A DNA stretch of 64,000 nt from NCBI GenBank assembly GCA_030268105.1, contig BSDZ01000115.1, positions 124,001-188,000 on the forward strand. The letters run 5' to 3'. The notes under the pieces were generated by a model. It saw only the letters and a program-made list of their open reading frames with translations. It searched no databases and was not told where the DNA came from. Numbering within the stretch: the first letter of the stretch is position 1; each line of letters begins with the position of its first letter. Both the position numbers and the translations under genes were made by a program. Shown one piece after another: positions 5,501-62,147 of the stretch. The DNA is from Volvox africanus (lineage: Eukaryota; Chlorophyta; Chlorophyceae; Chlamydomonadales; Volvocaceae).

Positions 5501-5674
5501 TACAATGTTTTGGTTGCCTCCCTCTCCCCCATGTCGCTGCAACATTTTGCTGGGACAGGGGCATTTGTCCCTGTGTTCATTGTTGTCATCAAATTCCTGA
5601 TTGTTCGCAACACCTTATATATGTCGTTTAGCTCTCCTCTGTTTACGGAGAGGCTTGCCAAGGTACCTTGGCCC

Positions 5675-5771
5675 GCACCTGTGCCGGAGTGGTCTAACGG
5701 GTGGGTCTCAAGCTTGATGGAGGGGCATTCCCATAGCGAAAGCTGCGTGAGATTGAACCTCACCGGGTGCA
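5675..5771 (+). tRNA. tRNA-Leu(CAA)-like gene with a 15-nt intron (unit 2)
   Basis: Copy of the 2390-2486 feature one period later, with the same acceptor, variable arm, intron and atypical T loop. As part of the macrosatellite, this tRNA-like gene would be amplified with the array. Confidence 0.5.
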
Positions 5772-8961: not shown

Positions 8962-9042
8962 CCCCTTGGTCATTTCAACACGCCTGTTACCTACCACTTC
9001 GTGGAGTTTGCTGGAGTTAGAGTTGCGGGGACGCAACCCTTC

Positions 9043-9057
9043 GCGGAGGGGGGATGG
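9043..9057 (+). other. Polypurine tract of the LTR-D element
   Basis: GCGGAGGGGGGATGG lies directly 5' of the LTR start TGTAACAG, where the plus-strand primer of LTR retrotransposons sits. Confidence 0.75.
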
Positions 9058-9476
9058 TGTAACAGGGTGAATGGCGCAGAAGCGCCAGAACGAGTGAAAC
9101 TGATTTGTCGTATTTGGCTTTTATGACAATAACTTAATTGCGTTATAATAGATTACTTATTATAAATCTAACGCATAGAACTTGGACAAGTCGCATGGGA
9201 CTACTGGCGTGCAAGCATTTGTACAACGGTGTCAGTTGTAGAATGTGCGCCAGTTTTGAATAGACGTAAGGCCCCCTTACGAGCCAGGTAACGCTATTTA
9301 AGGCGCCTGGATCATTTAGACATACAACTTCTTATACTTCTTCTTCTTCTTTCTTTGTAATTACTACTATAATGTAATCTATAAGGAGTCACCCTTACGC
9401 CGCGTGCCCTACGGCACAATGACTCGGAGCTCGCCGATATAGCTATCCCCAACAGCTAGGCGCTCCCTCTGTTACA
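9058..9476 (+). mobile_element. 3' LTR of the LTR-D chromovirus (419 bp)
   Basis: It starts TGTAACAG and ends CTGTTACA, a perfect 8-bp terminal inverted repeat of TG...CA type. It follows a polypurine tract and the chromodomain stop codon. It contains a TATTTAAGG box near 9295 and a pyrimidine-rich CTTCTTCTTCTTC run around 9335. The right end abuts an LTR-C copy that lacks its own left end, so this element probably inserted into LTR-C. The matching left flank is lost, so no target duplication can be read. Confidence 0.88.
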
Positions 9477-9997
9477 CAGTGGTCGATCGGCAACCGGATA
9501 TTGCTATTCGGACTCTTGTATCTTGCGGACGCTATGAAGGCTTAATTGTCGGAATACGCAGATATTGAAGCCCTGCGTTAGGGTTATCACACTTAGGATT
9601 GACCTCCTAGTGTGAGTTGTACTGCATATCGATATCGCACGTATATTAGATGCGAGGACGGCCATGTAGAGCAGAACATTTTCGTATACTATTGGAACAC
9701 GCCTGTGTTCACCTGGACTATTGCAATTTGCTCTGCTATTTTAGTCCGAGCTAAGCCCGAGCTTCACCATTCGCTATTCGCCAATCGCCGTATCATGATT
9801 GCCGCCCGCTGGGTCTGACGGCCGATCATACCATTGTATCCTTTCATCATTGTAAGTTATATCTTTCCTCTTTCTCAAGTCTTCCGCTGTCTCTTGCTGC
9901 TTCCAAGTGCTTTGTTGTACTTGCAAGCGTTTCGTGCTATTGTCTAAGCCCCAGACATGCAGACAATTTATGGGCAAAACTGAGGAGAGATACAACA
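9477..9997 (+). mobile_element. LTR-C, 5'-truncated
   Basis: About 521 bp with the LTR-B layout but clearly diverged. It has a palindrome CCGGATATTGCTATTCGG near 9497, the ATGCGAGGACGGCC block near 9650, the CTTCCGCTGTCTC block, GTAAGTTATATCT at 9852 and the 3' end GAGAGATACAACA. The first roughly 300 bp are missing because LTR-D abuts it. Its right end lies directly against LINE coding sequence. No internal region is attached, so it is either a solo LTR or a rearranged remnant. Confidence 0.75.
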
Positions 9998-10614
9998 CTG
10001 GGCATGCTCCACGGAAGAGCCAAGCCTGCACAGGAGCGGTTTTAGCGTGTTGGTTAGGGTCCCTGTGCTGCCCAGGGTGACGATTTGCGCCTCAGTGTAG
10101 TGCACCTTCCAGCCTGCTTTCATGAGTTCCTCTGTTAGCCGTGCGTGTTGTGCAGTTTTCTGCTCGAGTTTATCGGTGTGTTGCAGGTCGCTAGTGTAGC
10201 CCACTTCGACAATGTACACATCGTGCATGAGCTTGCATTCCGTCCCCTGGTACCGTTTGCACTGGGTTCTGCGCGTGGGGAGGTTGGGAATGAACATGAT
10301 GTCTTGGCGGAGGCGGCGGATTTCCTCGTCTCCTAGGTGTGGCAGCATCCATTTGGGGACGCGCATCCCGCTACAGTACGGTGGGAGATCCACTTCTTTA
10401 CCGGCGTCCATAATCATGAAGCCACCACGGTTACGGCCCCCGTGGACGCAGTCAGCAATAGTGCGCGTCGCTTGGTTATGCCGGTTGATGTACATGCCTT
10501 TCATGGTTGGGTGGGGGCATCCGCCGAGTATGTGGGCTCCTGAGTCGGGTGTGGGGCCGGTCGTTCCGCAGCTGCGGCAAATAGGGCAGTTTCCATCTCC
10601 GCCACGTCCGTAAA
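9998..10614 (-). pseudogene. LINE C-terminus: CCHC zinc knuckle plus restriction-like endonuclease (RLE)
   Basis: Reading down from about 10614, a zinc knuckle has CPIC and RSC followed by HILGGC (H-X4-C, bases 10517-10588), then RHNQA. The R2-type RLE pattern follows: RQDIMFIP (the usual R/K-PD-I motif with Q for P), VYIVEVGYTSD (catalytic Glu strand), EQKTAQHARLTEEL and GWKVHY, then IVTLGSTGT. This order is the R2/NeSL/Dualen arrangement. The domain is normally C-terminal and nicks target DNA. The frame runs into LTR-C at 9997, so the last residues are lost. A one-base frameshift near 10615 separates it from the upstream frame. Confidence 0.7.
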
Positions 10615-11719
10615 GTTTCTGCAGCTTAGCATTGAACAGTAGTCCGATCGAGCTTTCAGTATTTGCAGTTTGAGCCAGTGGGGCGTCTTTGGGTTGCTAA
10701 GGAAGGCATCGCTGGTTTTGGGGTCTAATTTCAAGGCGGTATTACACCATTTTTCAGTTAGAATTGTGTCATTTGTACAGCCTGCGAAGGTATCCTGCTG
10801 GAGACACTTCTAGAGGCCTTTGTTCAGGTCACTAATGTAAAAGCAAGTGTCACGCTGTTTTAGCCAGAACACTTTATCGAACGGGACGCTGTCTGCCTTT
10901 TCAGTAAAAGTTGCCGGAATCTCGCCTTGTGCGACAGATGTTGCTCCCTTGTCAGCTTTGTCATTACCATCAAGGCCGGTATGCGATTTCACTTTCAAGA
11001 AGTGGACGGTTATGTTCTGGTGGGCGTAGTCGTACAGTAGTTCGGTGATATCCATGAGTAAGGCTTTGTGCTTGGAAATGTGCAGTTTACTCGGATCGTT
11101 TATTGCTCTTTTGATAAGATCCAGTGATGCTTGTGAATCAGTGGCAATTGTTAGGGCGCTGTTCACTTCCTTTTGCGTTGATAGGGCCACGCGTATTGCC
11201 GCCAGCTCTGCCCATTGAATGGTATTGGTGCATCCGACGCCTGCTGGGTCGATGTACAATGTTATTCCGGTGGGTCCACAGCACGCAGCCGCACCCAACT
11301 TGTTCGGGCCGTCGTTTTCAGCCGGTTTAATGCAGCTACCGTCAGTCCAGATGATATCTTGTGGGTACACGCGGAGTGGTATTTGTCCGGGGAAAGCTGC
11401 TGTCAAGCGCTGCTGGAGCATCTGTCCGTCCATTTGGTGGACTATGGCGGTGGGTCTGGGTCCAGGCGGCTTTGAGGCCATCATTTTGCGTATGATCTGA
11501 GCAGCTTTGCTTGGGTAGGGACGCTGGATGTCGACGTATTGGGTGCCCTCGGGCGTGTCCCGCATGCGCAGATGTATTTTGGGGAGGCCGACGGCGTCCA
11601 TCGCTTTGAGTTCGGTTAGGAGCGCCTTCATGGAGCGGGCATTTATTCCTCGGATCGCCGTGTCGTTGGCCACCACGACGAGGTCCAGGCCTCCCTTTGG
11701 ATTTGGATTTGACCGTCAG
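10615..11719 (-). pseudogene. LINE RNase H domain and downstream linker
   Basis: A type-I RNase H fold is read from about 11340 to 10870. Its acidic residues lie in WTDGSC, IQWAELAAIRVAL, IATDSQASLDL and KSHTGLDGNDKADKGA, covering the D-E-D-(H)-D set. It would remove RNA from the RNA:DNA hybrid during target-primed reverse transcription. Upstream, GGLDLVVVANDTAIRG joins the previous domain after a frameshift near 11700. A TAG codon at 10810-10812 interrupts the linker. Beyond it, LDPKTSDAFLSNP and WLKLQILKARSDY lead to the zinc knuckle, as in other algal LINEs. Confidence 0.8.
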
Positions 11720-12626
11720 TTCCCGTCCCGATGGTGAGCATGCACGCTTCACCGCGGCTCAGTTGCGCAAGATGGAAGACGTACGGTGTGTTGTAAAGCT
11801 GTGTGTGGGGACCGGTCCGGCTGTGCGGGACAATGAGTAGTGTGGCGGTGGGCAATGCGGATGTCATTGTGTGTGATGCGCCTGTGATTGCCCACATTAC
11901 CGCCTTTTTGACGCTGGTGGGGTCGGGGTTCGGGTGTGCTATCGAGAGGCCTGTAAATGGCTGGGAGAATGCATCTATGTTCGCCCCGAAGAGTTGGTCT
12001 TCTGCATGGGCGCTGAAGTAGTATTGCACCTCTTCGCCGCAGTTAAGCGGGGATGAAAACCTTTCGACAACTGGGCCGGCGTCTAGGGTGTGCAGGGCGT
12101 CAACCAACGTGCGGCGCAGTTGTCTATTCATGGTCGCCTGCGACCGTGGCAGGTCTTTCGACTCTCGCCCATTGGGATCCTTTCTGTACCGCAGAAGAAG
12201 GCATGCGACGTCTTCGGCGAAGTCGCCCTGGGGGGATAAGCTTCTGTGTACCTCCGGGTAGGTTTCGTTCGTGTGTTGGTATCGCATTCTGAGGGTCTCT
12301 AAGCGTTGCAGGGTGAGGGTGCCCACGCATTTCCCTCTCGGGTCATAGGCAAAGGCCACGTTCCCTTCGGTTGAGCTGCCCTCTTTGGTTAGCAGTCCTA
12401 TCTGGATTCGGTACTTTCCCGTGGGGCACGTGTCCGTGTATGGATTGCATGGCGCGGTCTCAAAGGTAGTGTTCGCTCGAATAAGGCGTGCCCGCTGGGT
12501 TTGCTCCAAGGGGGGCGGGTCCCATCGGCCCTGCCGCTGAGGGGTCGTTAGATTGCTGTCCTTGGGTTTTGGGTATTTCGAGAGGGGGTTCACCCTCTGT
12601 GATCTCGTTTGCTCATATCTCTCCAT
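11643..12626 (-). pseudogene. LINE domain of unknown function, possibly methyltransferase-like
   Basis: Open frame of 327 codons between RT and RNase H. I do not recognise a named family with confidence. Visible motifs are EVQYYFSAHAEDQLFGANID, AFSQPFTGLSIAHPNPDP, VKKAVMWAITGA, ATLLIVPHS and PYVFHLAQLS. An acidic 'FGANxDAFS', then an 'NPxP' loop, then an A-rich helix and a hydrophobic 'LLIVP' strand could be a decayed N6-adenine methyltransferase core. This is inference only. The N-terminal part is Pro/Arg/Gln-rich and looks disordered. A frameshift joins it to RNase H near 11700. Confidence 0.45.
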
Positions 12627-16251: not shown

Positions 16252-17084
16252 TGTTGTGCTACGGTTCGTTTCTGCCAATGAGTAGGTCGATGCGACGCTA
16301 CGAGGCGAAGTGCTGTCTTGATGAACGCATGAATGACTTATGCATATGAATGAACTTGCATGACATAAATGTATCCGCATACATTTATGTATGTATTTTG
16401 CATGTTACCATTATCCATCGCGACATCGCATCATGGCTGATCCGCCTAGCATGCATGAAATCCCAAACGATTGAGATGTGCATTATGCTCGTGCTATGGA
16501 ACGATAAGTAATATTATCTGGTATAATATTACTTCATTACAGCACACGTTGAGAGCGCCGCACTCGTCACGATACATGCCTTGCAACTGAATATCGTTAT
16601 TCGGACCCTTGCATCATGTGAATGCTGGAAAGGCTTATCGGTTGTTATACATAGACATCGCCTATACGCAGTAGGGTTGTCACACTTAGGATCGGCCTCC
16701 TAGTGTGAGTAGTATGGCGTCGTGATGCTGCAAGTATAACAGATGCGAGGACGGCTAAGTAAGACAAGACATTTGATACCGGAGAACACTCGTGTGTTTG
16801 ATATTATTATTGCTATACGCTCTTCTACTTAGCCCTAGTGAAGCCTGAACTTCACTTATCACCGCCGCGTGATGATTGCTTGCTTCCGGTGCTGACGGTG
16901 ATCTCGTCCATTGCATCGCTTCGGTCTGTAAGATTGTAAGTTATATCTCTTCTTGTCTTGAAGTCTTCCGCTGTCTCTGTTTGCTTTCGCTTGCCTTGCT
17001 GTACTTGCAAGTGCTCGCGCATCGGTGTCGAAAGCTTTCAGACGCGCAGATATTTATGAGCAAACCCGAAGGAGAGGTACAACA
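16252..17084 (+). mobile_element. Solo LTR, family B, with TTTGA target duplication
   Basis: 833 bp starting TGTTGTGCTACGG and ending GGAGAGGTACAACA, the family-B LTR in plus orientation. The flanks are TTTGA at 16247-16251 and TTTGA at 17085-17089, a perfect 5-bp duplication. Removing the LTR and one TTTGA rejoins the LINE frame for about 60 codons, so it inserted when that part of the LINE was still open. Internal landmarks: palindrome at 16507-16533, CTGAATATCGTTATTCGG at 16587-16604, the GATGCGAGGACGGC block near 16743 and GTAAGTT at 16936. Confidence 0.95.
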
Positions 17085-26251: not shown

Positions 26252-29200
26252 TCATTGGGCTTGCGTGGCACGTTTGCGGGCTTCTTCGAGCAGGGGCTTC
26301 ATGTCCTGCGAGAAGTTGCGTGCCGGTTCCCATGAGTTGTGCTCGCTGGTATACCCTGTCCACTTGACCAAGTACTCGTGTACTGTCCGCTTACGTTGGT
26401 GTCGGCCCACACGACGTGCACGATAATCTAACACCCACTCCACATCGTAAAACTTCTGTTTACCAGCGATCCAGGTCTCGGGTACTGGTTCTATCGCTGC
26501 GGGGGCGTTAGCAGGCTCAGGGACGGGTTCCGTACCACGATACGGACGAACAAGCGATACGTGAAACGTGGGGTGAATGGTCATATCAGCGGGCAATGCA
26601 AGCTCCACAGCCACATTCCCAACCATGCGCACGACAGGATACGGACCAATCCAGCGGGGTAAGAGTTTTCGGGATCCGTCGGCCAAGGAACGCAAGTTCT
26701 TGGTGCTTAGCAACACGAGTTGCCCTTCCAAAAACGTCACATCCTGCTTAGATTTGTTATAGTATTCCGTCGTTCGTTGCTGCGCCGCGTCCAAACACGA
26801 CTTCGCGTCTGTGATTCGGGACATAAAAGACTTGGCAAAAAGTTTAGCAGCAGGCACGTTCACTTCCAACTCACGCCACACGGGTAGCGCGGGATGAAAT
26901 CCGTAGTTAAGAAAGAACGGACTTTTGTCTGTTGAGCGGTTCACAGCGTTGTTAAGCGCGAATTCTGCCGCAGTCAAATATGTATCCCAAACAAGTGGTG
27001 TGCGACCAGCATAATTGCGCAACATATCACCCAACGTGCGATTTGTGCGTTCGGTTTGACCATCAGTCTGCGGGTGGTACGCTGTGCTCAGGTTGACACG
27101 CATGCCAACTAGTTTGCAGAGCGCTTCCCAAAACTTAGACGTGAACTGTCCACCGCGGTCCGAGATCACATTTTTGGGAACCCCGTGTAACCGAACCACA
27201 TTGTCGAAAAACAAACGTGCGGTTTGCTCAGCCGTGCAGGATGATGTGCATGGTGCTAGGTGAACCATCTTAGTCAGACGATCGACCATTACGAACACCG
27301 CATCGTATCCCCCCTCAGTTTTGGGCAGCGCGACTACGAAGTCCATGGAAACACTTTCCCAAGGCGCATCCGGGACAGGCAACGGTTGCAACAACCCATG
27401 GCCCTTACCGGACAAAGCCTTATTGCGCTGGCACAGACTGCATGTCTGGACGAAGTTCGCTGCATCCTTAGCCAAACGAGGCCACCAAAAGGAACGTTGC
27501 ACCAAGTCGATCAATCGCTTGCTACCAGGGTGTCCTGCTAACGGGTCCTCGTGGAACCGCGCAAGGATGTCGTAGCGTAGCGCGTCGTCGTTCGGAACGA
27601 CGATTTGCGTAGCTGCACCCTCCGTCCGTAGCCAAAGGCCATTCTGCTTGCGAAGGTTTTCTACATTAGCCGGGTCCGCGAACCAGGCGTCTGCGTTGTA
27701 GGCAACCTTCAACCGCTCCGCGAGGTCCGTCGCGATCGGTACCTCCTCGCTACGTGGCCGCACGACGGGCGCTGCCAAAATTGCAGTGTGTAGCGACGGA
27801 TGTCGACTGAGAGCATCGGCAATATTCAATTTACCAGAAATATACTCCCAGGTGCAGTCGAACCTAGCTAGGTATTCCATCCACCTAGCCTGACGGCGGT
27901 TCAACGTCGGAACGCTTTGCAAAAACGTTAGGGGCTTATGGTCAGTCTTTAAAGTAAACGGCCGTCCCTCGAGGTAACAGCGCCATTCCTTTAAAGCATG
28001 CAGCACGGCCAGAAGCTCCTGTTCCCCGGTGGTGTAGCGAATCTCCGCACCAGAAAACTTCTTACTCGTGAAGGCGATTGGTTGCCCTTCCTGTAACAAT
28101 ACAGCGCCGCTTCCAAATATTGAGGCATCAGACACTACCTCAACACGAAATGGCAACGAGTAATCAGGGAATGCAAGGGTGACATCTTCGGCAACGATTC
28201 GTTTGAGCTCTTCGAATGCCCGCTGGCATTGCGGCGTCCACGACTCGAGCGAAACGAAAACGCCTTTGCGAGTTAAGTTAGTAAGTGGGGCCACAATGAT
28301 GGAATATTTTTCAATGAACTTTCGGAAATAATTGGTCAAGCCAAGGAACTTACGCAGCTCCGTGAGGTTCTGAGGCGCGGGCCAATCGCGAACCACGGCG
28401 ACCTTCCGCGGGTCCATCTTCACACCGGTGGCCGACACAATGTGGCCCAAATATTCCACCTGAGGCTGCGCCCAAAAGCATTTGGCGCGTTTAGCAAACA
28501 ATTGCTCCCGCCTCATAACGTCGAGCACGAGCCGAAGATGCTCCAAGTGCTCCTCGCGCGTCTTAGAATATACCAAGATGTCATCCAGGTAGCAAACAAC
28601 GAACCTGTCGATAAACGGCCTAAACATTCGGTCCATAACCGCCTGAAACGTCGCAGGGGCATTAGTCAAACCAAACGATAGGACCGTATACTCAAAGTGA
28701 CCGAAGGGCGTCCGAAAAGCGGTTTTCGGGATATCAGAGGCAGCGATGCGAATCTGATTGTAGCCCTGTTGTAAGTCAATTGAGGAAAAATAAGCCGAGC
28801 CCTTCAGCTTATCCAACAGGTCGTCAACGCGTGGCAAAGGGTAGCGATTTTTCACCGTATTCGCATTTAACCCCCGGTAATCAATGCACATGCGCAAGGT
28901 CCCATCCTTCTTACCGACAAACAAAATCGGTGCAGAATACGGGGATGTGCTGGGGCGTATCATACCCTTCGCGAGCAAATCCATCACCTGGCGCTTCACC
29001 TCGTCCAGCTCCAATGGACTCAACCTGTACATTGGCCGGGCCGTAGGCTGCACTCCAGGCACGAGAGGGATTGTGTGATCAACAGGACACATAGGTGGTA
29101 GGCCAGGGATATCTTTAAAGACGTCCTCATACTGCGACAGTAGGGCCTCAACCTCAGGATCCGCAGAAATCTGTGCGGTGGTGACACAACAGCTCACCCG

Positions 29201-29878
29201 CGGCCTTAAAAGCAGTCCGTGGGCACCCTTCCGTAACAAACGGACGGCCTCCTTACGCCCGACTAGCTCTGGTTCGATTCGCGTGGCCATTGCGGTCACA
29301 GCGAAATTAACCATAGGCACCGCCTCAGTTTCGCCCTCCTTTGGTGTGACATGTTCGAACGACAGGAAAGGTACCTTAATCGACAGAGTACCCTTGCACA
29401 TATGCAGGGTTGCGGTCTCCATGTCGATGCGCGTGCGGTACTGTCGTAATGTCGACGACCCCATTATGTACGGTGCAGTCTCTGCTAAGCCCTGCAGCAC
29501 GTACGGCCGGGTCACAACACGCAAAGGGCCTATCGATAGGCTAAGGGTAATCCTGCCCACGATGGGATGCTTACCCCCGTCAGCAAGGGTAACCTGTGGA
29601 CAATCAGACGACTCTGGGGACAACCCCAGCGCATTCACCTCTGCGACAGAGATGAAGTCGTCGCTGGCACCGGTGTCAACAAGTGCCTTCAGAGTACGGC
29701 CATTCAAACCGATCTGAACCACAGGGACACGGTTATCTATGAGCGACTGCCCAGCAGACAACGTCAGTGCACTTAGGGCGGGTCCGTAACCTACGGCACC
29801 CCCGTCAGGAGCTTCGTACCAAACGTCAACTTCAGAAATCCCAGGTGGTGCCCCCTCCGCAGGAACCCGGGCAAGCCC
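26252..29878 (-). CDS. Pol of family-B chromovirus B1 (protease-RT-RNase H-integrase-chromodomain), intact catalytic core
   Basis: Open from the gag-terminal UAG (29879-29881) to 26252. Numbered from the Met at 29761 (1169 residues): protease DTGA at 29-32, RT with SIDLQ Asp 329 and YLDD 391-394, RNase H Asp 545 and TDHK 607, integrase HHCC H737/H744/C774/C777 and catalytic D807, D868 and E904, GPY/F near 1039, and chromodomain about 1104-1155 ([13 protein letters not shown]). It would be made as part of Gag-Pol. Compared with B2 and B3, 435 bp (145 codons) N-terminal to the protease are missing without loss of frame, which may remove a needed spacer or part of the protease flank. It is the longest intact pol in the window. 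Confidence 0.93.
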
Positions 29879-35122: not shown

Positions 35123-36591
35123 GCCGTCAGCGCCGGAAGCAAGCAATCTGTTGTACCTCTCGTTCGCGTTTGCTCATGAGTATCTGCACGTCTGGAGACT
35201 ATCGACACCGATGCGCGAGCACTTGCAAGTACAGCCAGGCAAGCGAGAGCAAACAGAGACAGCGGAAGACTTCAAGACGAAGAGAGATATAACTTACGGT
35301 CTTACAGAGCGGAATGATGCAATGGACGAAATCGCCGTCAGCGCCGGAAGCAAGCAATCATCACGCGGCGGTGATTAGCGAAGTTCAGGCTTAGCTCGGG
35401 CTAAGTAGAATAGTACAAAGAAATAGTAATATAGAACACACGAGTGTTCTCCGGTATCGAATGTCTTGTCTAGCTTAGCCGTCCTCGCATCTGTTATACT
35501 CGCAGCATCGCAATGCCGTACGATTCACATTAGGAGGCCGATCCTAGATGTGACAACCCTACTGCGTCTAGGCGATGTCTACGCATAACAACGTATAAGC
35601 CTTTCCGGCATTCGCATGATGCAAGGGTCCGGATAACGATATCCGGTTGCTGGGCATGTATCGCGACGAGTGCGGCGCTCTCAACGTGTGCTGTAATGAA
35701 GTAATATTATATCAGATAATATTACTTATCGTTTCGTAGCACGAGCATAATGCGCACTTCAATGATTCGGTCATTCATGCATGCTAGGCGGATTTGCCAT
35801 GATGCGATGTCGCGATGGATAATGACAACATGCCAGATGCATATATAAATGTATGCGAATACATTTATATCATGCAGATTCATTCAAATGTAATGCGTTC
35901 ATCACAAAAGCACTTCGCCTCGTAGGATCGCGTCGACCTACGCGTCGGCGGGAAATGAACCGTAGCACAACACAATCATCACGCGGCGGTGATTAGCGAA
36001 GTTCAGGCTTAGCTCGGGCTAAGTAGAGTAGCGTATAGCAATAGTAATATAGAACACACGAGTGTTCTCCAGTATCGAATGTCTTGTTCTTGCTTAGCCG
36101 TCCTTGCATCTGTTATACTCGCAGTATCGCAATGCCGTACGATTCACATTAGGAGGCCGATCCTAGATGTGACAATCCTACTGCGTATAGGCGATGTCTA
36201 CGCATAACAACGTATAAGCCTTTCCGGCATTTGCATGATGCAAGGGTCCGGATAACGATATCCGGTTGCAGGACATGTGTCGCGACGAGTGCGGCGCTCT
36301 CAACGTGTGCTGTAATGAAGTAATATTATATCAAATAATATTACTTCTCGTTTTGTAGCACGAGCATAATGCACACTTCAATGCTTCGGGCTTTCATGCA
36401 TGCTAGGCGGATTTGCCATGATGCGATGTCGCGATGGATAATGACAACATGCCAAATGCATATATAAATGTACACGAATACATTTATATCATGCAGATTC
36501 ATTCATATGCAATGTGTTCATCACAATAACACTTCGCCTTGTAGGATCACATCGACCTACGCATCGGCGGAAAACTAACCGTAGCACAACA
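35123..36591 (-). mobile_element. 3' LTR of B3, partial and interrupted
   Basis: LTR sequence occupies 35123-35148 and 35973-36591, split by the solo LTR above. About 180 bp at its left end (the TGTTGTACC terminus through the GTAAGTT-site region) are missing and replaced by the B2 LTR. The right end GTAGCACAACA is followed by the polypurine tract (36592-36608). Confidence 0.88.
35149..35972 (-). mobile_element. Solo LTR, family B, nested in the B3 LTR, with CAATC target duplication
   Basis: 824 bp. The flanks are CAATC at 35144-35148 and CAATC at 35973-35977, a perfect 5-bp duplication inside the sequence GCAAGCAATCATCACG of another family-B LTR. It is a clean LTR-into-LTR insertion that later became a solo LTR. 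Confidence 0.94.
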
Positions 36592-40701: not shown

Positions 40702-41937
40702 CTATTTCGGCTGAGGTACAAACGGCGGCATTAGAGGGCAATCCTTCGTGGAATGGCTCTCCGCACACCGTAGACAAACGTTGGCCAATTTCCGACGCTC
40801 GAATTCGGAACGATTGCAATTCCATTTTGGCATATACGTGTCGTCCGTGTGAGTCCGCTTCGCATTGGGGTCGGAACGCTGTGCGGCTGCCGTCGACGGC
40901 GCATCACCACGCTTCCTGTTTTTAGCCGGGTCCGAGCTCGGACCTGCTCCTCCTGACCCACGGACACCCGAGCTAGCGCCCCCGCGCGCCTTGCGTTGCC
41001 GGTTGCTGCGTCGCGTCGCGGCAGTAGGCGTGGGGCGGGTCGCTCCGAAGTCCTGGTCAAGAGCTACGGCTTCCCCAAGCGGATCCTGCACTTGCACGGC
41101 ATTTGCACGAGGGACAGACTTGACTTCTTCCTCACCGGCAAGGAGTCGTATCTCCGTGCCCTTAGCAAAAGCGACCAAAGCATCGTACGACTTGATCTGC
41201 GCTCCAACCAAGTCAGTAGCGCACCATTTAGCCAAAAGTTTCGTCAGGCCTCGCCTAAACCAAAAGACACGCTCGGATTCAGTGAGGTCAGCAATGGGAT
41301 TCACAAGTGCTTCGAAGCGTGACTGGTACGCAGGTACATTTTCATCCCGACGCATGTGGTAGCTACCGGCTGCCAAAACGTTACGAGCTTCCACATCGCG
41401 TGCTTGAACCTCAGTAGCGAATCGTGCGAGCAAAGCGGCGACCAACTCGTCAAAAGTATAGTTGCCCCGGGCGTTGGTCCAATTGCGATACCAGTCCTTC
41501 GCTGAGCCCTCGAGGGTGTTACCAACGAAGAGACACCTGATACCGTCATTATCGCCACCATGAACAGCCTGGAGGTACTTTTTAGCGTCACGCACGTACG
41601 CACGAGTTGCATCGGCTATGCTATGCCCTGGTGTCTTGTCGGTCAGCGAAATATTGAGCCTAGGGACGGGAATTGACAATCTCATCACCTCAGGGATGTC
41701 ATCATGCCCTCGAGCTTGAGGTAATGGCAGAACCCTTGGTCCAGCAGTGTTGTCCATATTCGTGTTCACTGCTGAATGCGGCACAATTAAGTGAGCAGGG
41801 GTCTGAAGGAAAAGGGGCTCTTGAGTGGCTCGTGCGCCAACAGTCTCAAGACCTCTATCCGGTGCTCTAGCAGCCACAACAAAATCGGGTTGGCTAGCTA
41901 GGCTAGTGTGCGGCGTATCGTCGTGTTCCGCGGACAT
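40702..41937 (-). CDS. Gag polyprotein of family-B element B3 (intact, 411 aa)
   Basis: Almost identical to the B2 gag: gag core about 90-260, basic low-complexity stretch, knuckle CLRCAESHSTKDC at 388-400 (C-X2-C-X3-H-X4-C), ending FVPQPK-UAG with GGG next. The start codon follows a leader of about 450 bp. Structural role: RNA packaging and particle formation. B3 has an intact gag, a PBS, a polypurine tract, one full LTR and a pol with a single indel, so it is the youngest-looking complete element. Confidence 0.93.
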   Translation of the reverse strand: MSAEHDDTPHTSLASQPDFVVAARAPDRGLETVGARATQEPLFLQTPAHLIVPHSAVNTNMDNTAGPRVLPLPQARGHDDIPEVMRLSIPVPRLNISLTDKTPGHSIADATRAYVRDAKKYLQAVHGGDNDGIRCLFVGNTLEGSAKDWYRNWTNARGNYTFDELVAALLARFATEVQARDVEARNVLAAGSYHMRRDENVPAYQSRFEALVNPIADLTESERVFWFRRGLTKLLAKWCATDLVGAQIKSYDALVAFAKGTEIRLLAGEEEVKSVPRANAVQVQDPLGEAVALDQDFGATRPTPTAATRRSNRQRKARGGASSGVRGSGGAGPSSDPAKNRKRGDAPSTAAAQRSDPNAKRTHTDDTYMPKWNCNRSEFERRKLANVCLRCAESHSTKDCPLMPPFVPQPK

Positions 41938-46881: not shown

Positions 46882-46995
46882 TGGCCCCTATCGGGATCGA
46901 ACCGATGACCTTGGCGTGCCCACCGTGTTCGAGGTTTCCTCACCAGTCTCCTGTCCGTATTAGCACAACGCTCTAACGAGCTGAGCTAAGGGGCC
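46882..46995 (-). tRNA. tRNA-Ile(AAT) with a 40-nt intron
   Basis: Minus strand: acceptor GGCCCCT pairs perfectly with AGGGGCC, discriminator A. D arm TAGCTCAGCTCGTTAGAGC matches the A box. The anticodon loop CTAATA gives anticodon AAT. A 40-nt intron (forward 46920-46959, approximate by a base or two) sits one base 3' of the anticodon, the canonical eukaryotic position. The 3' half reads ACGCCAAGGTC, then T arm ATCGG-TTCGATC-CCGAT, a perfect B box. The mature length is 74 nt. One mismatch lies in the anticodon stem. No run of four T residues directly follows, so the Pol III terminator is unclear. This looks like a functional gene. Confidence 0.88.
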
Positions 46996-51545: not shown

Positions 51546-53508
51546 ATGCCTGGATTGATTCGGAGTGGACTCCATCCGGGACAGCTGAACAAATGCATGG
51601 TCGGTGGTCATTCGTATGTCCAACTGTGAAGCATCGTTGCTTTTAGTCCTTGAGAACGTATCGTTTGTTCATCCCCTCATCTCAAAGTGAGCCGTTCGAA
51701 CAGCTGGTCAGGTACAGGAGATGTAGACATCAATGTCCGGACACTCCTGCATGTTTGTGGCTACCATTTCACAGCCAGCGTAGGGCTACCGCTTTGTTAA
51801 ACAGTATGCAACGTGTCCTCTGATTCAAGTCAGGCACTGTATTGATTGATGATGTGAACATGGCGGGATCCGCAGTTCTGTTGCCAGAATTGTCCTATGC
51901 CTTTGATGTCTGGTATGAAGCCCCTGTAGCGGTTCTTGTTAATTTTGAGCCCGCCCTGGAATCACTTTTGTTATCTGTGGAGTCAACTCTGAAAGATTAT
52001 TGTGTTTCCGTTATTGAAGTCAGCCTCGCTGGTCGAATGATGAAGGCACTTGAGGATACTAGTGCCAGTGACGACTTCATCTCAGCAAAGGAGGTGAATG
52101 TGTTGGGGTCGACCCCACAGTCGTCTGATTGTGACAGGTTACCCTCGTTGATGAGGGTAAGCATCCCATCGTGGGCAGGATCACCCTTAGTCGTCGAAGG
52201 TCCCTCTGTGTGTTAGGGCCCAATGAGTGCAACAAGGTCTCTTGGAGACAGCACTACATGGACATTGGGTGCCGCGACATAACGACAGTACCGCGCGCGC
52301 ATCGATGTGGAGTCCAGCACAATTGGCCATTGTGCAAAAGGGAACCTATCGACTAAGGTACCTTGTCTGTCGTACCAAGATGTCACACCAAGGAGGGCGG
52401 AACTGTTGCAGAGCCTGAGGTTAATTTTGCTTTGGCGGCGATCGTCAGCGGAAATCAAGAACCCAAGCTAATTGGGCACAAAGAAACCGATCGGATGATA
52501 CGGAAAGGCGCCCATGTGTTGCTTGTGAGGCCACGGGTGCAATCGAATGCTTCCACCGCGCAGTCCACCGTGAAGGATCTTGAGGTCGAAGCCCTCCTGC
52601 ATAAATATGCTGATGTCTTTGGCGACATCCCAGGGCTCCCACCTATGTTCCCTGCTGACTATACGATCCCTCTTGTGCTCGAGCACAACCCGTTTCACAA
52701 CCTATGTACAGGTTAAGCTGCCAAAGTTGGGCGGATGAAGCGGCAAGTGGGGGATCCGCTCGCAAAGGGTATGATTCGGCCCAGCACTTCGCCATATTCT
52801 GCACCGATATTGTTTGTCGGTAAGAAGGATGGGACGTTGCGTATGTGCATTGATTTTTGGGGCTTGAATTCGACCACGAACAAAAATCGCTACCCTTTGC
52901 CGCGTGTTGATGACCTGTTTGAAAAGCTGAAAGGCTCAGCTTATTTTTCCTCGATTGACCTTCAACAAGGGTATAATCAGATACGCATTGCTGCCTCTGA
53001 TATTCCGAAAACCGCTCTCCGGACCCCCTTTGGTCACTTCGAGTATACGGTCTTGTCGTTTGGACTCACTAATGCGCCCGCCACATTTCAAGCAGTGATG
53101 GATCGCATGTTCAGACCGTATATCGACAGGTTCGTAGTTTGTTATTTGGATGATATTTTAATATATTCCAAGACGCGCGAGGAGCATCTGAAGCATCTCG
53201 AGCTCGTGCTTGAGGTGATGAAGCTGGAGCAATTGTTTGCTAAACGCACCAAGTGTTTTTGGGCGCAGCCTCAAGTGGAGTATTTGGGCCACATCGTGTC
53301 GGCCACGGGAATAAGGATGGACCCACGGAAGGTAGCTGTGGTTCACGAGTGGCCCGCGCCGCAGAACCTCACCGAACTACGCCAGTTCTTGGGTTTGACG
53401 AACTACTTCCGTAAGTTTATAAAAATTTACTCCATTATTGCGGCCCTGCTTACGAATTTGACGAAGAAAGGAGGTTTCGCTTCCCTCGAAGCCTGGACAC
53501 CCGTGTGT
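51546..53508 (+). pseudogene. A3 pol, protease and RT, degenerate and cut by B4
   Basis: Protease-like frame 51842-52216 reads LEDTSASDDFISAKEVN, where the active-site DTG is changed to DTS, so the protease would be inactive. Several frame changes follow. RT is open from 52735 ([43 protein letters not shown]) and stops at LEAWTPV, where the family-B LTR begins at 53509. RNase H and most integrase are missing; the integrase end resumes at 60239. Confidence 0.82.
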
Positions 53509-54332
53509 TGTTGTACCTCTCGTTCGCGTTTGCTCATAAGTATCTGCACGTCTGGAGACTTTCGACAACGATGCGCGAGCACTTGCAAGTACAGCAAGGC
53601 AAGCGCGAGCAAACAGAGACAGCGGAAGACTTCAAGACGAAGAGAGATATAACTTACGGTCTTACAGGTCGGAATGATGCAATGGACGAAATCGCCGTCA
53701 GCGCCGGAAGCAAGCAATCATCACGCGGCGGTAATTAGCGAAGTTCAGGCTTAGCTCGGGCTAAGTAGAATATCGTATAGCAATAGTAATGCAGAACACA
53801 CAAGTGTTCTCCGGTATCGAATGTCTCGTCTAGCTTAGCCGTCCTCGCATCTGTTATACTCGCAGCATCGCAGTGCCGTACGATTCACATTAGGAGGCCG
53901 ATCCTAGATGTGACAACCCTACTGCGTATAGGCGATGTCTACTCGTAACAACGTATAAGCCTTTCCGGCATTCGCATGATGCAAGGGTCCGGATAACGAT
54001 ATCCGGTTGCAGGGCATGCATCGCGACAAGTGCGGCGCTCTCAACGTGTGCTTTAATGAAGTAATATTATATCAGATAATATTACTTATCGTTTCATAGC
54101 ACGAGCATAATGCGCACTTCAATGATTCGGTCATTCATGCATGCTAGGCGGATTTGCCATGATGCGATGTCGCGATGGATAATGACAACATGCCAGATGC
54201 ATATATAAATATATGCGAATACATTTATATCATGCAGATTCATTCATATGCAATGTGTTCATCACAATAGCACTTCGCCTTGTAGGGTCGCATCGACCTA
54301 CGCGTCGGCGGGAAATGAACCGTAGCACAACA
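53509..54332 (-). mobile_element. 3' LTR of family-B element B4
   Basis: 824 bp with intact family-B ends, followed in the element's own direction by the polypurine tract (54333-54349). It interrupts family-A RT/RNase H coding sequence at TGGACACCCGTGTGT. Confidence 0.92.
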
Positions 54333-54391
54333 ATTATCCCCCCTCCCGTATGCAGCGTCCTTGCTGCTTTATACAGCATCGACTGCAAGGG

Positions 54392-57300
54392 TCATTGGGC
54401 TTGCGTGGCACGTTTGCGGGCTTCTTCGAGCAGGGGCTTCATGTCCTGCGAGAAGTTGCGTGCCGGTTCCCATGAGTTGTGCTCGCTGGTATACCCTGTC
54501 CACTTGACCAAGTACTCGTGTACTGTCCGCTTACGTTGGTGTCGGCCCACACGACGTGCACGATAATCTAACACCCACTCCACATCGTAAAACTTCTGTT
54601 TACCAGCGATCCAGGTCTCGGGAACTGGTTCGATCGTTGCGGGGGGCGTTAGCAGGCTCAGGGACGGGTTCCGAACTACGATACGGACGAACAAGCGATA
54701 CGTGAAACGTGGGGTGAATGGTCATATCAGTGGGCAATGCAAGCTCCACAGCCACATTCCCAACCATGCGCACGACAGGATACGGGCCAATCCAGCGGGG
54801 TAAGAGTTTTCGGGATCCGTCGGCCAAGGAACGCAAGTTCTTGGTACTTAGCAACACGAGTTGCCCCTCCGAAAACGTCACATCCTGCTTGGATTTGTTA
54901 TAGTATTCCGTCGTTCGTTGCTGCGCCGCGTCCAAACACGACTTCGCGTCTGTGATTCGGGACATAAAAGACTTGGCAAAAAGTTTAGCAACAGGCACGT
55001 TCACTTCCAACTCACGCCACACGGGTAGCGCGGGATGAAATCCGTAGTTAAGAAAGAACGGACTTTTGCCTGTAGAGCGGTTAACAGCATTGTTAAGCGC
55101 GAATTCTGCGGCAGTCAAATACGTATCCCAAACAAGTGGTGTGCGACCAGCATAATTGCGCAACATATCACCCAACGTGCGGTTTGTGCGTTCGGTTTGA
55201 CCATCAGTCTGCGGGTGATACGCCGTGCTCAGGTTGACGCTCATGCCAACTAGTTTGCAGAGCGCTTCCCAAAACTTAGACGTGAACTGTCCACCGCGGT
55301 CCGAGATCACATTTTTGGGAATCCCGTGTAACCGAACCACGTTATCGAAAAACAAACGTGTGGTTTGCTCAGCCGTGCAGGATGATGTGCATGGTGCTAG
55401 GTGAACCATCTTAGTTAGACGATCGACCATTACGAACACCGCATCGTATCCCCCCTCAGTTTGGGCAGCGCGACTACGAAGTCCATGGAAACACTTTCCC
55501 AAGGCGCATCCGGGACAGGCAACGGTTGCAATAACCCATGGCCCTTACCGGACAAAGCCTTATTGCGCTGGCACAGACTGCATGTCTGTACGAAGTTCGC
55601 CGCATCCTTAGCCAAACGAGGCCACCAAAAGGAACGTTGCACCAAGTCGATCAATCGCTTGCTACCAGGGTGTCCTGCTAACGGGTCCTCGTGGAACCGC
55701 GCAAGGATGTCGTAGCATAGCGCGTCGTCGTTCGGAACGACGATTTGCGTAGCTGCACCCTCCGTCCGTAGCCAAAGGCCATTCTGCTTGCGAAGGTTTT
55801 CTACATTAGCCGGGTCCGCAAACCAGGCGTCTGCGTTGTAGGCAACCTTCAACCGCTCCGCGAGGTCCGTCGCGATCGGTACCTCCTCGCTATGCGGCCG
55901 CGCGACGGGCGCTGCCAAAATTGCAGCGTGTAGCGACAGATGTCGACTGAGAGCATCGGCAATATTCAATTTACCAGAAATATACTCCCAGGTGCAGTTG
56001 AACCTAGCTAGATATTCCATCCACCTAGCTTGACGTCGGTTCAACGTCGGAACGCTTTGCAAAAACGTTAGGGGCTTGTGGTCAGTCTTTAAAGTAAACG
56101 GGCGTCCCTCGAGGTAACAGCGCCATTCCTTTAAAGCATGCAGCACGGCCAGAAGCTCCTGTTCCCCGGTGGTGTAGCGAATCTCCGCACCAGAAAACTT
56201 CTTACTCGTGAAGGCGATCGGTCGCCCTTCCTGTAACAATACAGCGCCGCTTCCAAACATTGAGGCATCAGACACTACCTCAACACGAAATGGCAACGAG
56301 TAATCAGGGAATGCAAGGGTGACATCTTCGGCAATGATTCGTTTGAGCTCTTCGAATGCCCGCTGGCATTGCGACGTCCACGACTCGAGCGAAACGAAAA
56401 CGCCTTTGCGAGTTAAGTTAGTAAGCGGGGCCGCAATGATGGAATATTTTTCAATGAACTTTCGGAAATAATTGGTCAAGCCAAGGAACTTACGCAGCTC
56501 CGTGAGGTTCTGAGGCGCGGGCCAATCGCGAACCACGGCGACCTTCCACGGGTCCATCTTCACACCGGTGGCCGACACAATGTGACCCAAATATTCCACC
56601 TGAGGCTGCGCCCAAAAGCATTTGGCGCGTTTAGCAAACAATTGCTCCCGCTCATAACGTCGAGCACGAGCCGAAGATGCTCCAAGTGCTCCTCGCGCGT
56701 CTTAGAATATACCAAGATGTCATCCAGGTAGCAAACAACGAACCTGTCGATAAACGGCCTAAACATTCGGTCCATAACCGCCTGAAACGTCGCAGGGGCA
56801 TTAGTCAAACCAAACGATAGGACCGTATACTCAAAGTGACCGAAGGGCGTCCGAAAAGCGGTTTTCGGGATATCAGAGGCAGCGATGCGAATCTGATTGT
56901 AGCCCTGTTGTAAGTCAATTGAGGAAAAATAAGCCGAACCCTTCAGCTTATCCAACAGGTCGTCAACGCGTGGCAAAGGGTAGCGATTTTTCACCGTATT
57001 CGCATTTAACCCCCGGTAATCAATGCACATGCCATTCTTCTTACCGACAAACAAAATCGGTGCAGAATACGGGGATGTGCTGGGGCGTATCATACCCTTC
57101 GCGAGCAAATCCGTCACCTGGCGCTTCACCTCGTCCAGCTCCAATGGACTCAACCTGTACATTGGCCGGGCCGTAGGCTGCGCTCCAGGCACGAGAGGGA
57201 TTGTGTGATCAACAGGACGCATAGGTGGTAGGCCAGGGATATCTTTAAAGACGTCCTCATACTGCGACAGTAGGGCCTCAACCTCAGGATCCGCAGAAAT

Positions 57301-58444
57301 CTGCGCGGTGGTGACACAACAGCTCACCCGCGGCCTTAAAAGCAGTCCGTGGGCACCCTTCCGTAACAAACGGACGGCCTCCTTACGCCCGACTAGCTCT
57401 GGTTCGATTCGCGCGGCCATTGCGGTCACAGCGAAATTAACCATAGGCACCGCCTCAGTTTCGCCCTCCTTTGGTGTGACATATTCGAACGACAGGAAAG
57501 GTACCTTAATCGACAGAGTACCCTTGCACATATGCAGGGTTGCGGTCTCCATGTCGATGCGCGCGCGGTACTGTCGTAATGTCGACGACCCCATTATGTA
57601 CGGTGCAGTCTCTGCTAAGCCCTGCAGCACGTACGGCCGGGTCACAACACGCAAAGGGCCTATCGATAGGCTAAGGGTAATCCTGCCCACGATGGGATGC
57701 TTACCCCCGTCAGCAAGGGTAACCTGTGGACAATCAGACGACTCTGGGGACAACCCCAGCGCATTCACCTCTGCGACAGAGATGAAGTCGTCACTGGCAC
57801 CGGTGTCAACAAGTGCCTTCAGAGTACGGGCCATTCAAACCGATCTGAACCACAGGGACACGGTTATCTACAAGCGACTGCCCAGCAGACAACGTCAGTG
57901 CACTTAAGGCGGGTCCGTAACCTACGGCACCCCCGTCAGGAGCTTCGTACCAAACGTCAACCGAGTAGGATAGGCGTGGCCACGGAGCCAGCGTACCCTC
58001 CCGATCCACACCATTAAACAAAACGGTGCCCGGCTCGAACCGGTGGACATGCCGCATACCCCTTAACGATGCCTCTGCCTTGCGCCGACAGAAAGCAGGG
58101 AGTAAAACACATGCGGCAGTGCCTGGGTATTGACGCCTACACCTCCTGTATATGGCCAACTGTTCCGACATCTCACGCAGAGACGAGGGGATGAACAAAA
58201 CCACGTGGCTAGACAGATCGATAGACGACAGGGGACGGCGAGGTGTAAACAAATTACACAACGGGTCGAAGCAGAGAAGTCCCGTGCGTCCGTCAAGCGT
58301 GATGCGTCGCGCAATGACTCACTCGATGTGCCCAAGTACACAAGGCAACAATGCCTTAACGGCTGGCCGTAAGGATGACCACCGACCACGCGTTAGTTCA
58401 GAAATCCCAGGTGGTGTCCCCTCCACAGGAACCCGGGCAAGCCC
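54392..58444 (-). pseudogene. Pol of family-B chromovirus B4, many single-base indels
   Basis: Same order as B3. One-base changes break the frame near 54645 (extra G), 55462 (lost T), 56651 (lost C) and 57829 (extra G); 12 bp are lost near 57030. Protease [14 protein letters not shown], RNase H, HHCC, the catalytic Asp and Glu residues and the chromodomain are all recognisable. It reads back to the gag-terminal UAG at 58445-58447. Most indels are one base in short homopolymers, so read error is a possible cause. Confidence 0.9.
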
Positions 58445-59322
58445 CTATTTCGGCTGAGGTACAAACGGCGGCATTAGAGGGCAATCCTTCGTGGAATGGT
58501 TCTCCTCACACCGTAGACAAACGTTGGCCAATTTTCGACGCTCGAATTCGGAACGATTGCAATTCCATTTTGGCATAAATGTGTCATCCTTACGAGTACG
58601 CTTCGCGTTGGGGTTGGAACGCTGTGCGGCTGCCGACGACGGCGCACCACCACGCTTCCTGTTCCTAGCTGGGTCCGAGCTCGGACCTGCTCCTCCTGTA
58701 CCACGGACACCCGAGCTAGCGCCCCCGCGCGCCTTGCGTTGCCCGTTGCTGTGTCGCGTCGCGGCAGTAGGCGTTGGGTGGGTCGCGCCGAGGTCCTGGT
58801 CGAGAGCTACAGCTTCCCCAAGCGGATCCTGCACTTGCACGGCATTTGCACGAGGGGCAGACTTGACTTCTTCCTCGCCGGCAAGGAGTCGTATCTCCGC
58901 GCCCTTAGCAAAAGCGACCAACGCGTCATACGACTTGATCTGCGCTCCAACCAAGTCAGTGGCGCACCATTTAGCCAAAAGTTTCGTTAGGCCTCGCCTA
59001 AACCAAAAGACACGCTCGGATTCGGTGAGGTCAGCAATGGGAGTCCACAAGTGCTTCGAAGCGTGACTGGTACGCAGGTACATTTTCATCCCGACGCATG
59101 TGGTAGCTACCGGCTGCCAAAACCTTACGAGCTTCCACATCGCGTGCTTGAACCTCAGTAGCGAATCGTGCGAGCAAAGCGGCGACCAACTCGTCAAAAG
59201 TATAGTTGCCCCGGGCGTTGGTCCAATTGCAATACCAGTCCTTCGCTGAGCCTTCGAGGGTGTTACCAACGAAGAGACACCTGATACCGTCATTATCACC
59301 ACCATGAACAGCCTGGAGATAC
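58445..59322 (-). pseudogene. Gag of B4, 5'-truncated at a telomere-repeat junction
   Basis: Frame to the UAG at 58445 includes VFWFRRGLTKLLAKWCATDL, the basic stretch and the knuckle CLRCEENHSTKDC. One extra base near 59046 shifts the frame. The homology to B1-B3 gag ends at GGAGATACTT (59314-59324), within the codons for KKYLQ, and TTTTAGGG-type repeats begin. The start of gag, the leader, the PBS and the 5' LTR of B4 are lost. Confidence 0.88.
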
Positions 59323-59365
59323 TTAGGGTTTTAGGGTTTTTAAAACCCTAAAACCCTAAAACCCT
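59323..59365. repeat. Head-to-head interstitial telomere-like repeats
   Basis: Reading left to right: TTAGGG, TTTTAGGG, TTTT (G-rich strand), then AAAACCCT three times (C-rich strand) from 59342. The G-rich strand points towards the junction from the left and the C-rich strand leaves it to the right, the orientation produced when two chromosome ends join. Both flanks are broken family-B elements. The 8-bp unit TTTTAGGG is the Chlamydomonas-type telomere repeat. Confidence 0.85.
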
Positions 59366-59628
59366 ATAATATATAATAATACTTATCGTTTCATAGCACG
59401 AGCATAATGCGCACTTCAATGATTCGGTCATTCATGCATGCTAGGCGGATTTGCCATGATGCGATGTCGCGATGGATAATGACAACATGCCAGATGCATA
59501 TATAAATATATGCGAATACATTTATATCATGCAGATTCATTCATATGTAATGCGTTCATCACAAAAGCACTTCGCCTCGTAGAATCGCGTCGACCTACGC
59601 GTCGGCGGGAATGAACCGTAGCACAACA
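59366..59628 (-). mobile_element. Family-B LTR fragment (right end only), minus orientation
   Basis: Homology starts at about 59381 (ACTTATCGTTTCATAGCACG) and runs to GTAGCACAACA at 59628. The first bases (ATAATATATAATAAT) look like a damaged version of the LTR palindrome. This is the last 250 bp or so of an LTR and is not continuous with B4. Confidence 0.82.
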
Positions 59629-60238
59629 TGTGTCATTATGCTCGTGCTACAAAACGATAAGTAATATTATCTGATATAATATTACTTCATTAAAGCACAC
59701 GTTGAGAGCGCCGCACTTGTCGCGATGCATGCCCTGCAACCGGATATCGTTATCCGGACCCTTGCATCATGCGAATGCCGGAAAGGCTTATACGTTGTTA
59801 TACGTAGACATCGCCTAGACGCAGTAGGGTTGTCACATCTAGGATCGGCCTCCTGATGTGAATCGTACGGCGCTGCGATGCTGCGAGTATAACAGATGCG
59901 AGGACGGCTAAGCTAGACAAGACATTCGATACCGGAGAACACTTGTGTGTTCTACATTACTATTGCTATACGATATCCTACTTAGCCCGAGCTAAAGCCT
60001 GAACTTCGCTAATCACCGCCGCGTGATGATTGCTTGCTTCCGGCGCTGACGGCGATTTCGTCCATTGCATCATTCCGATCTGTAAGACCGTAAGTTATAT
60101 CTCTCTTCGTCTTGAAGTCTTCCGCTGTCTCTGTTTGCTCGCGCTTGCCTTGCTGTACTTGCAAGTGCTCGCGCATCGGTGTCGAAAGTCCCCAGACGTG
60201 CAGATACTTATGAGCAAACGCGAACGAGAGGTACAACA
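59629..60238 (+). mobile_element. Family-B LTR, 5'-truncated, plus orientation
   Basis: About 610 bp from CATTATGCTCGTGCTAC to GCGAACGAGAGGTACAACA. It faces the previous LTR fragment, giving an inverted pair that shares roughly 45 bp. Its right end abuts family-A integrase sequence. Confidence 0.83.
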
Positions 60239-61272
60239 CAGAAAACTTCGTGCAAAGGTGCAGTTTATGTCAGCGCAATAAAGCACTATCCGGTAAGTGT
60301 CAGGGTTTATTACAACCCTTTATCTATACCAGATACCCCTTGGGAAAGTGTTTCTATGGACTTCGTAGTCGTGCTGCCCAAGACTGAGGGGGGATACGAC
60401 TCGGTGTTCGTAATGGTCAATCGTTTGACCAAGATGGTTCACTTAGTTCATTTGAGCACAGCATATCATCCACAATCGGATGGGCGAACCGAACACAAAA
60501 AATCGCACGCTGAGCGACATGTTGAGGAATTTTGCAGGACCCACACCCTCTGTTTGGGATACATTTCTGAATTCAGCAGAATTTGCGCTCTACAGGTCAA
60601 AGCGCTTTCTTTCTGAATTATGGATTCCATCCTGCGCTACCTGTGTGGTGAGAGTTGGAGATAAATATCCCGGCGGCTAAAACCTTTGCCAAGTCGTTCC
60701 TATCCCGCATGACAGACGCGAAGGCATGTTTGGATGCGGCACAACAACGGACGACGGACTATTATAATAAATCCAAACGAGACGTAACATTTTCGGTGGG
60801 ACAAATGGTATTATTGAGCACTAAGAACTTGCATTCGCTCGCCGACGGTTCCCGTAAATTGCTACCTCGCTGGATTGGTCCATACCCCGTTGTTCACATG
60901 GTAGGGAATGTAGCTGTGGAGCTATCCCTACCCTCTGACATGAATATCCATCCCACATTTCATATTTCCCTCATCCGCCCTTATTGCGGCATGACGCCCG
61001 TTATAAACGACACCGATGCCCCTGCAGTAATGGACCCCGGTCCCGAGACCTGGATCGCAGGCAAGCAAAAGGTGTATGATGTGAAGCGAATATTGGATTA
61101 TCAGGTTCGTCATATAGGTCGACAACGATGAAAGCGGAAGGTGCACGAATATCTGGTCATGTGGACTGGCTATTCTAGCGAGCATAATTCGTGGGAGCCG
61201 ATGTGTAACTTCTCGCCGGAAATGAAGCCCCTATTGGAGGATGCTCGCCTACGTGCCACGCAGACCCAATGA
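60239..61272 (+). pseudogene. A3 integrase and chromodomain 3' part, broken
   Basis: Starts in the integrase zinc region (GKLRAKV in place of the usual KDAENFVQKC, then CQRNKALSG in another frame). [19 protein letters not shown] is present, then about 190 bp including the second catalytic Asp are deleted. Frame 60655-61131 holds NIPAAKTFAKSFLSRMTDAK, GPYPVVHMVG and HPTFHISLIRPY and ends just before the chromodomain. The chromodomain ([19 protein letters not shown]) follows in the next frame, with the element stop at 61270-61272. Confidence 0.83.
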
Positions 61273-61331
61273 TCTCTGAAGTCGATGCTGTCCGATGCAG
61301 CTAGGACGCTGCATACGGGAGGGGGGATAGT

Positions 61332-62147
61332 TGTTGTTCGCCGGTTCGATCACTGTTGGCACTGAAGTAGGCCGCAATGCATTCGAGCATGATGAGGCAT
61401 AATACAATCATATTAGCATGATATACTCGAGAATATCTAGCTAATCAGGCATGCTGCATTATCATCTACGACATCACGCTGTCGGTCAACATGTTTGACT
61501 CGAGGCTGATAATTAATGTGCGATCTATCCATTGGCATTTTATATCACGTAATAATATTTTAAATATTATTACCTCATCTACATCATAAACCATACGCGT
61601 ATGCGAGAATGCGATGATCGCGTTGGGTTGGGTCGGCAACCGGATATCGATATTTGGACCTTCGCATATTACATATGTTGCATCCATTAATATCACGGAT
61701 GACACGATATTTAGAACAGTGCTACGAAGGTATTCACACTTGAGATCGGAATCCAGTGAGACCTGTACTGCACATCGGTATCGTGACGTGATAGGTGTGA
61801 GGACGGCCGCCTAGAGACCGAAGTCGGCTTGACACTAATTGGGATCAAGTACTCGTGTACTTAACTCGGTCTGATTCTGATATATACGTTTTACTCATTT
61901 ATTATCGGCCTGAGCTATTCCAGCATAGCATTCCCAGTCGGATGATGAACGCTGTCCGCGGGGTCTGACGGCAGACTCCTAATTTGCAACTGAAGATCAT
62001 TGTAAGTTGAATCTTTCCTTATTTATAAGTCTTCCGCTGTCACGTTGCTTGCACTGCAGTGTCTTGCTGTTCGTAAGCACCATGCACGAGTAGCTAATAC
62101 TCAGACGTGCAGATTCAGTGCATGATTGAAGAAGGAAGGATACAACA
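61332..62147 (+). mobile_element. 3' LTR of A3
   Basis: 816 bp, TGTTGTTCGCCGG to GGATACAACA, preceded by the polypurine tract CGGGAGGGGGGATAGT (61316-61331). A2 integrase resumes at 62148 with CAGGGGGCTAAG. Confidence 0.9.

Follow-up and report, generated by a model that had tools for sequence, protein, structure and literature searches.

Head-to-head telomeric repeats inside a Ty3/gypsy insertion of Volvox africanus, probably left by telomere addition to both sides of a local break

Telomeric repeats that meet head to head inside a chromosome are usually read as scars of chromosome fusion. Telomerase lengthens 3' ends solely with the G-strand, and two ends lengthened in this way must therefore lie head to head once they are joined. 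In mammals, telomeric repeats inserted at breaks have been described together with in-register bases and local deletions (PMC2246262, PMC7215372). These s-ITS of primates, rodents, and horse (Nergadze 2007, PMC2246262; PMC7215372) resemble the tract discussed here in their few internal units, their local deletion, and, for the left break, their in-register bases, and also in being post-integration events within unrelated sequence. As described in those papers, an s-ITS typically consists of one array in one orientation, whereas ours holds two arrays head to head in a TTTTAGGG genome of algal look. The TERC-ITS of mouse lemur and Xenopus do show two head-to-head stretches like ours (PMC8537989). 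In that account the head-to-head form is rare among vertebrates (3 of 41 TERC-ITS loci), whereas we count ~37 events in one 141-Mb genome, and its authors ascribe the form to a second telomerase at the break's other side. Copies of telomerase RNA flank the TERC-ITS, whereas none has so far been recognized at our tract. Fusion ITS such as human 2q13 (PMC6410037, PMC7215372) share the orientation, but there the flanks come from two chromosome ends, whereas ours read as one local insertion. In Chlamydomonas reinhardtii, TTTTAGGG units likewise lie inside chromosomes, and telomere ends are reported to be blunt as well as overhanging (PMC6549138). The same report suggests end-to-end fusions as a possible origin of its interstitial repeats, whereas the present data, from another genome, favor break repair. 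A literature search turned up no account of such head-to-head break-repair tracts for green algae. Events of this kind are already known; what is new here is their frequency, their two-sidedness, and the before-state made available by multi-copy elements.

The window, i.e., the whole stretch of 64,000 nucleotides under analysis (C112:124001-188000), belongs to a 141-Mb assembly in 126 contigs and is a nest of Ty3/gypsy elements. At 59325-59364, TTTTAGGG-type units run head to head into CCCTAAAA-type units. The letters of 59315-59372 read, in this order, GGAGATACTT, AGGGTTTTAGGGTTTTT, AAAACCCTAAAACCCTAAAACCC, and TATAATAT, and they bear out the orientation proposed for 59323..59365 by a first-pass annotation made from the sequence alone. 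The pattern TTTTAGGGN{0,10}CCCTAAAA has a single match in the window and is absent from all 100 dinucleotide-preserving shuffles. The tract is a short internal run of the genome's own telomere unit, as in an s-ITS at a double-strand break, and it also consists of head-to-head arrays of that unit, as in a fusion ITS. The features of the interrupted element (E1) and its surroundings are the following.

51961..53508, plus strand: left part of host element A, another Ty3/gypsy family and the insertion target of E1
53504..53508, no strand: left target-site duplication of E1, TGTGT, with the identical five letters at 59629-59633
53509..54332, plus strand: left LTR of E1 (the 3' LTR, the coding strand being minus), 824 bp, TGTTG...CAACA
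54333..59324, minus strand: internal region of E1, pol and truncated gag region; the break at 59324 corresponds to 41580 of an intact copy
55430-56641 and 56560-57834, minus strand: pol ORFs of E1, with an RVT_1 match in 56560-57834
59325..59341, plus strand: G-strand arm, AGGG TTTT AGGG TTTT and one extra T, pointing to the center and extending the TT of 59323-59324
59342..59364, minus strand: C-strand arm, AAAACCCT AAAACCCT AAAACCC; this second telomeric stretch faces the G-strand arm head to head
59365..59379, no strand: A/T-rich stretch at the right break, within the AT palindrome of the LTR and unlike the other LTR variants seen
59365..59628, plus strand: most likely the remaining end of the right LTR (5' LTR) of E1, LTR positions ~560-824, oriented as the left LTR
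59629..59633, no strand: right target-site duplication of E1, TGTGT, matching 53504..53508
59634..60238, minus strand: fragment of a second LTR of the same family (E2; LTR positions 604-1), in inverse orientation
60241..61797, plus strand: right part of host element A, continuing the left part collinearly, with ~765 bp of A absent between them

The family of E1 has the LTRs and the pol with RT, RNase H, integrase, and chromodomain that define Ty3/gypsy elements, its copy at 26252-29761 giving RVT_1, RNase H, integrase, and Chromo matches. The gag ORF at 40702-41937 gives gag-family matches, all of them below the curated cut-offs. In E1 the break at 59324 removes the first 119 codons of the annotated gag reading frame, and intact copies run on past it (window 41580); on the other side, the LTR is cut within its AT-rich palindrome. 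Both flanks are thus what the first-pass annotation had taken them for, namely a gag cut mid-gene and an LTR cut mid-palindrome. Between the two break points, an intact copy holds 826 bp of internal sequence and ~560 bp of LTR, so that ~1.4 kb was lost at the tract. Since integration of a retroelement leaves two full LTRs and the right LTR is partial, this loss came after integration. Two other origins fall away: a tract gained before integration is ruled out, as reverse transcription would have restored the partial right LTR, and so is a tract that forms a normal part of the LTR or gag, since it is absent from 13 other left-site copies and from 11 other LTR sequence variants.

Judged by their sequence, both flanks of the tract are most likely parts of one Ty3/gypsy insertion, in the usual order and orientation. 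Where a host copy reads CCCGCGTGTCAG, the corresponding left flank of E1 reads CCCGTGTGT. The right-hand TGTGT is not LTR sequence; the CA behind it agrees with the host copy CGTGTCAG and precedes the E2 LTR fragment. Matching 5-bp flanks (TTTGA and CAATC) also border two solo-like LTRs of this family, at 16252-17084 and 35149-35972. Such flanks are absent at the solo-like LTRs 31108 and 34308, both of which lie within nested copies, and matching target-site duplications are not universal in this nest. A right LTR inverted relative to E1 was considered and rejected, the inversion being confined to the neighboring fragment at 59634-60238 (E2). Because the flanks appear as two parts of one insertion, with the same 5 bp outside and a collinear host, it was most likely a single local break whose two sides were joined. 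A second deletion scar, separate from the tract and without telomeric repeats, lies next to the element at 59629-60240, where TGTGT and CA are followed by position 604 of the inverted LTR fragment and where ~765 bp of host element A, between the right TGTGT of E1 and E2, are lost.

One result speaks against a single element. The two LTRs of E1 differ at 8 of 256 aligned bases and by one gap, whereas six LTR pairs elsewhere, ~6-7 kb apart, show 0-2 differences over the matching stretch (L065 and L066 hold several LTR copies, and for these the pair at matched positions was used). Six of the differences cluster at LTR positions 743-784, where the left LTR has the states of 3-7 of 39 copies, and the right LTR has fewer differences (2) to other copies than to the left LTR, its presumed partner. 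This divergence could mean that two different elements are involved. The patch at 743-784 in the left LTR is possibly a gene conversion, a reading that leaves some doubt and that we adopt since any other reading would hardly account for the shared host-site letters.

Intact copies show what both break sites looked like beforehand. On the left, TACTTTTTAGCG stands in 12 of the 13 tract-free copies and TACCTTTTTGCG in the remaining one, and the junction itself reads GATACTT/AGGG (the slash marks the join), with its last two bases, TT, in register with the added repeat; the intact left site itself contains TTTTAG. On the right, where the other LTR variants carry AAGTAATATTATATCAGATAATATTACTT or a near match, the junction consists of 15 A/T bases that fit poorly before the GGG of the other strand, the last two (TA) being in register. 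This A/T stretch at 59365-59379 may be either damaged LTR sequence or a short filler.

A similar site lies at C13:3247410 (L078), where a head-to-head tract sits inside a Ty3 element of family A and replaces ~488 bp between collinear flanks. Its left flank corresponds to window 23373 and upstream and its right flank to 22884 and downstream, both on one strand. The left break reads TCCTA/GGG against TCCTACC in the paralogue; the right break lies near TTAA, where register requires one base change. Register with the repeats is clear over 2 nt at the left breaks of E1 and L078 and ambiguous at the right breaks of both. At either place the tract replaces part of a formerly continuous sequence, as in s-ITS, judged by paralogues and not by alleles of the same locus. 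These two are the only ones of the 41 head-to-head places in the genome (see below) at which collinear flanks could be assessed. For L076 and L077, a genome search returned no paralogue across the tract: the former had no copy, and the copies of the latter end ~190 bp before it. Among the other head-to-head loci fetched, which were compared with the window only, none apart from L078 matched across the tract. Pieces of family A also lie in alternating orientation, at a spacing of ~10.8 kb, at C25:1194968-1240066.

Long TTTTAGGG arrays sit at contig ends (the end of C16 and the starts of C19 and C20, among the first 100 of 475 six-unit matches) and TTTTAGGG is therefore the true terminal unit of this genome; a different terminal repeat, by which the first-pass annotation would have had its proposal refuted, is not what the contig ends carry. 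Genome-wide, the head-to-head pattern TTTTAGGGN{0,30}CCCTAAAA gives 48 matches at 41 places. These places amount to ~37 events once copies are collapsed, the three copies of the window junction, a pair on C14, and a pair on C16 each being counted once. The tail-to-tail pattern CCCTAAAAN{0,30}TTTTAGGG, in contrast, is found at 2 places, and controls with reversed patterns return 0 and 3; a binomial test of 37 against 2 has a p of 2.8e-9. When TTTAGGG patterns are used more loosely, with gaps of <=12, there are 56 head-to-head against 6 tail-to-tail matches (the latter at 5 places), with controls of 1 and 8. C20 carries 7 of these 56 matches, six of them of one length (21 bp), which may be copies of one repeat.

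The joins themselves vary. Direct joins (exact runs with <=1 extra base) are seen at 13 of the 41 places, i.e., 11 events, and all 11 fall in a T/A run such as TTTT/AAAA or TTT/AAA, a preference for T-run ends that may, as a guess, reflect where telomerase lets go. A further join, on C37, lies at TTTTAG/CCC and was missed as direct by the script owing to a five-T unit. At the remaining 27 places (28 with C37), 3-25 bases separate the exact runs, and these places may be old, impure, or partly due to chance. One-sided tracts are commoner than head-to-head ones: by hand count, C3 (7.76 Mb) has 10 places with two-unit matches and C8 (5.68 Mb) has 21, against 1 and 2 head-to-head places, respectively. 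Three two-unit telomeric places on C4 (6551674, 6571992, and 6592275) are spaced by ~20.3 kb and are perhaps tandem copies.

In our reading, to which we give a probability of about 0.78, the tract in E1 stems from a local break in one element, telomere repeats having been put on both ends before these were joined. A double-strand break (or a break losing ~1.4 kb) would have occurred inside one integrated Ty3/gypsy element, after which telomerase would have extended both 3' ends by about two TTTTAGGG units each, beginning at one or two in-register bases (TT at the left end, TA at the right one). Once the C-strands had been filled in, ligation of the two ends would have left the head-to-head tract. 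We infer telomerase as the adder, the fill-in, and the end joining from the structure that remains. The core of the earlier proposal, short telomere addition to two broken ends that are subsequently joined, is retained here as the best mechanism, the telomere unit and the orientation having both been confirmed.

The alternatives differ in where the two ends, or the repeats, come from. The main model of the first-pass annotation has two different broken chromosomes capped with short telomeres and then fused, as at human 2q13. Head-to-head orientation and the correct telomere unit are what it expects, and E1's LTRs diverge more than a pair should. The flanks, however, are collinear, with the same TGTGT at both ends and a collinear host element A outside; with the LTR divergence as a caveat, they do not read as the flanks of two chromosome ends. 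The second testable site is collinear too, and ~37 scars would imply dozens of chromosome fusions. We therefore abandon the comparison with 2q13 and hold such a fusion to be very improbable. A further alternative is that end joining captured telomeric DNA already made, in the form of fragments, circles, or reverse transcripts of telomeric RNA, telomerase not acting on the ends. Filler insertion is possible in end joining, and the A/T stretch at the right break is blurred; capture nonetheless predicts that head-to-head and tail-to-tail tracts are equally frequent, which the 41 places against 2 contradict, and we consider it unlikely.

The palindromic motif might also be a selected or mobile element in its own right that has spread through the genome, such as a protein site of telobox type or a very small inverted-repeat element; telo-boxes are known in plant promoters (PMC10167121). 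Its many places with similar centers, including the 11 direct joins within a T/A run, would suit such an element. On the other hand, arm lengths and centers differ from place to place, and at both testable places sequence was replaced (488 bp and ~1.4 kb) in lieu of a clean insertion, so that we give this idea slightly less credit than fusion. Least credible of all is an assembly join between two contig ends, another alternative raised by the first-pass annotation. C112 is indeed short, with the junction ~6.9 kb from the contig end, but a 541-bp junction query has full-length matches at C113:32310-32851 and C30:503270-503811, on contigs of 1.75 Mb and 0.55 Mb, with collinearity over at least 3.5 kb around the junction. 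Across 3545 aligned columns, the window shows 0 and 1 mismatches to C113 and C30, respectively, and 4 gaps to each; a further 2 kb to the left on C113 adds one gap and zero mismatches, and to the right C112, C113, and C30 stay collinear for 3 kb. The copies on C113 and C30 may be recent duplicates or redundant contigs. The presence of this junction on three contigs makes a chance mis-join improbable, though these contigs may share reads; moreover, true terminal arrays reach up to hundreds of bases, against two units at the junction.

Two-sided telomere addition to a broken end pair looks like a recurrent repair outcome in this genome. It is a tentative proposition, somewhat less probable than its opposite, that telomerase regularly takes part in double-strand break repair in this algal lineage, often extending both ends, and that such deletions form a standing class of mutation; if so, head-to-head interstitial telomeres should not be read as chromosome fusions in the lineage. 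For karyotype work, sites of this kind call for caution and are not to be counted as fusions. The tract lies inside what reads as a single retrotransposon insertion whose intact copies reveal the pre-break state of both sides, and with the second site and the 41-to-2 orientation bias, the genome allows the action of telomerase on both sides of a break to be tested directly.

Some further features of the window deserve mention. Positions 46882-46995 (minus strand) give an Rfam tRNA match of 43.4 bits, 114 bases long against 71 in the model and thus with an insert, where ARAGORN reports none. Window 8400-12400 recurs inverted at C112:25048-29048 and C113:51274-55274 at 100% (rounded), as a large inverted duplication or a folded contig, and window 1-8308 consists of ~3.3 kb tandem copies that contain AGAT-type microsatellites and agree at 99.4% of 5053 aligned bases. 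Among the best 120 of 7770 protein matches, the nearest named one is from Astrephomene gubernaculifera (70% identity over 93%), and Haematococcus, Closterium, and Tanacetum follow further down.
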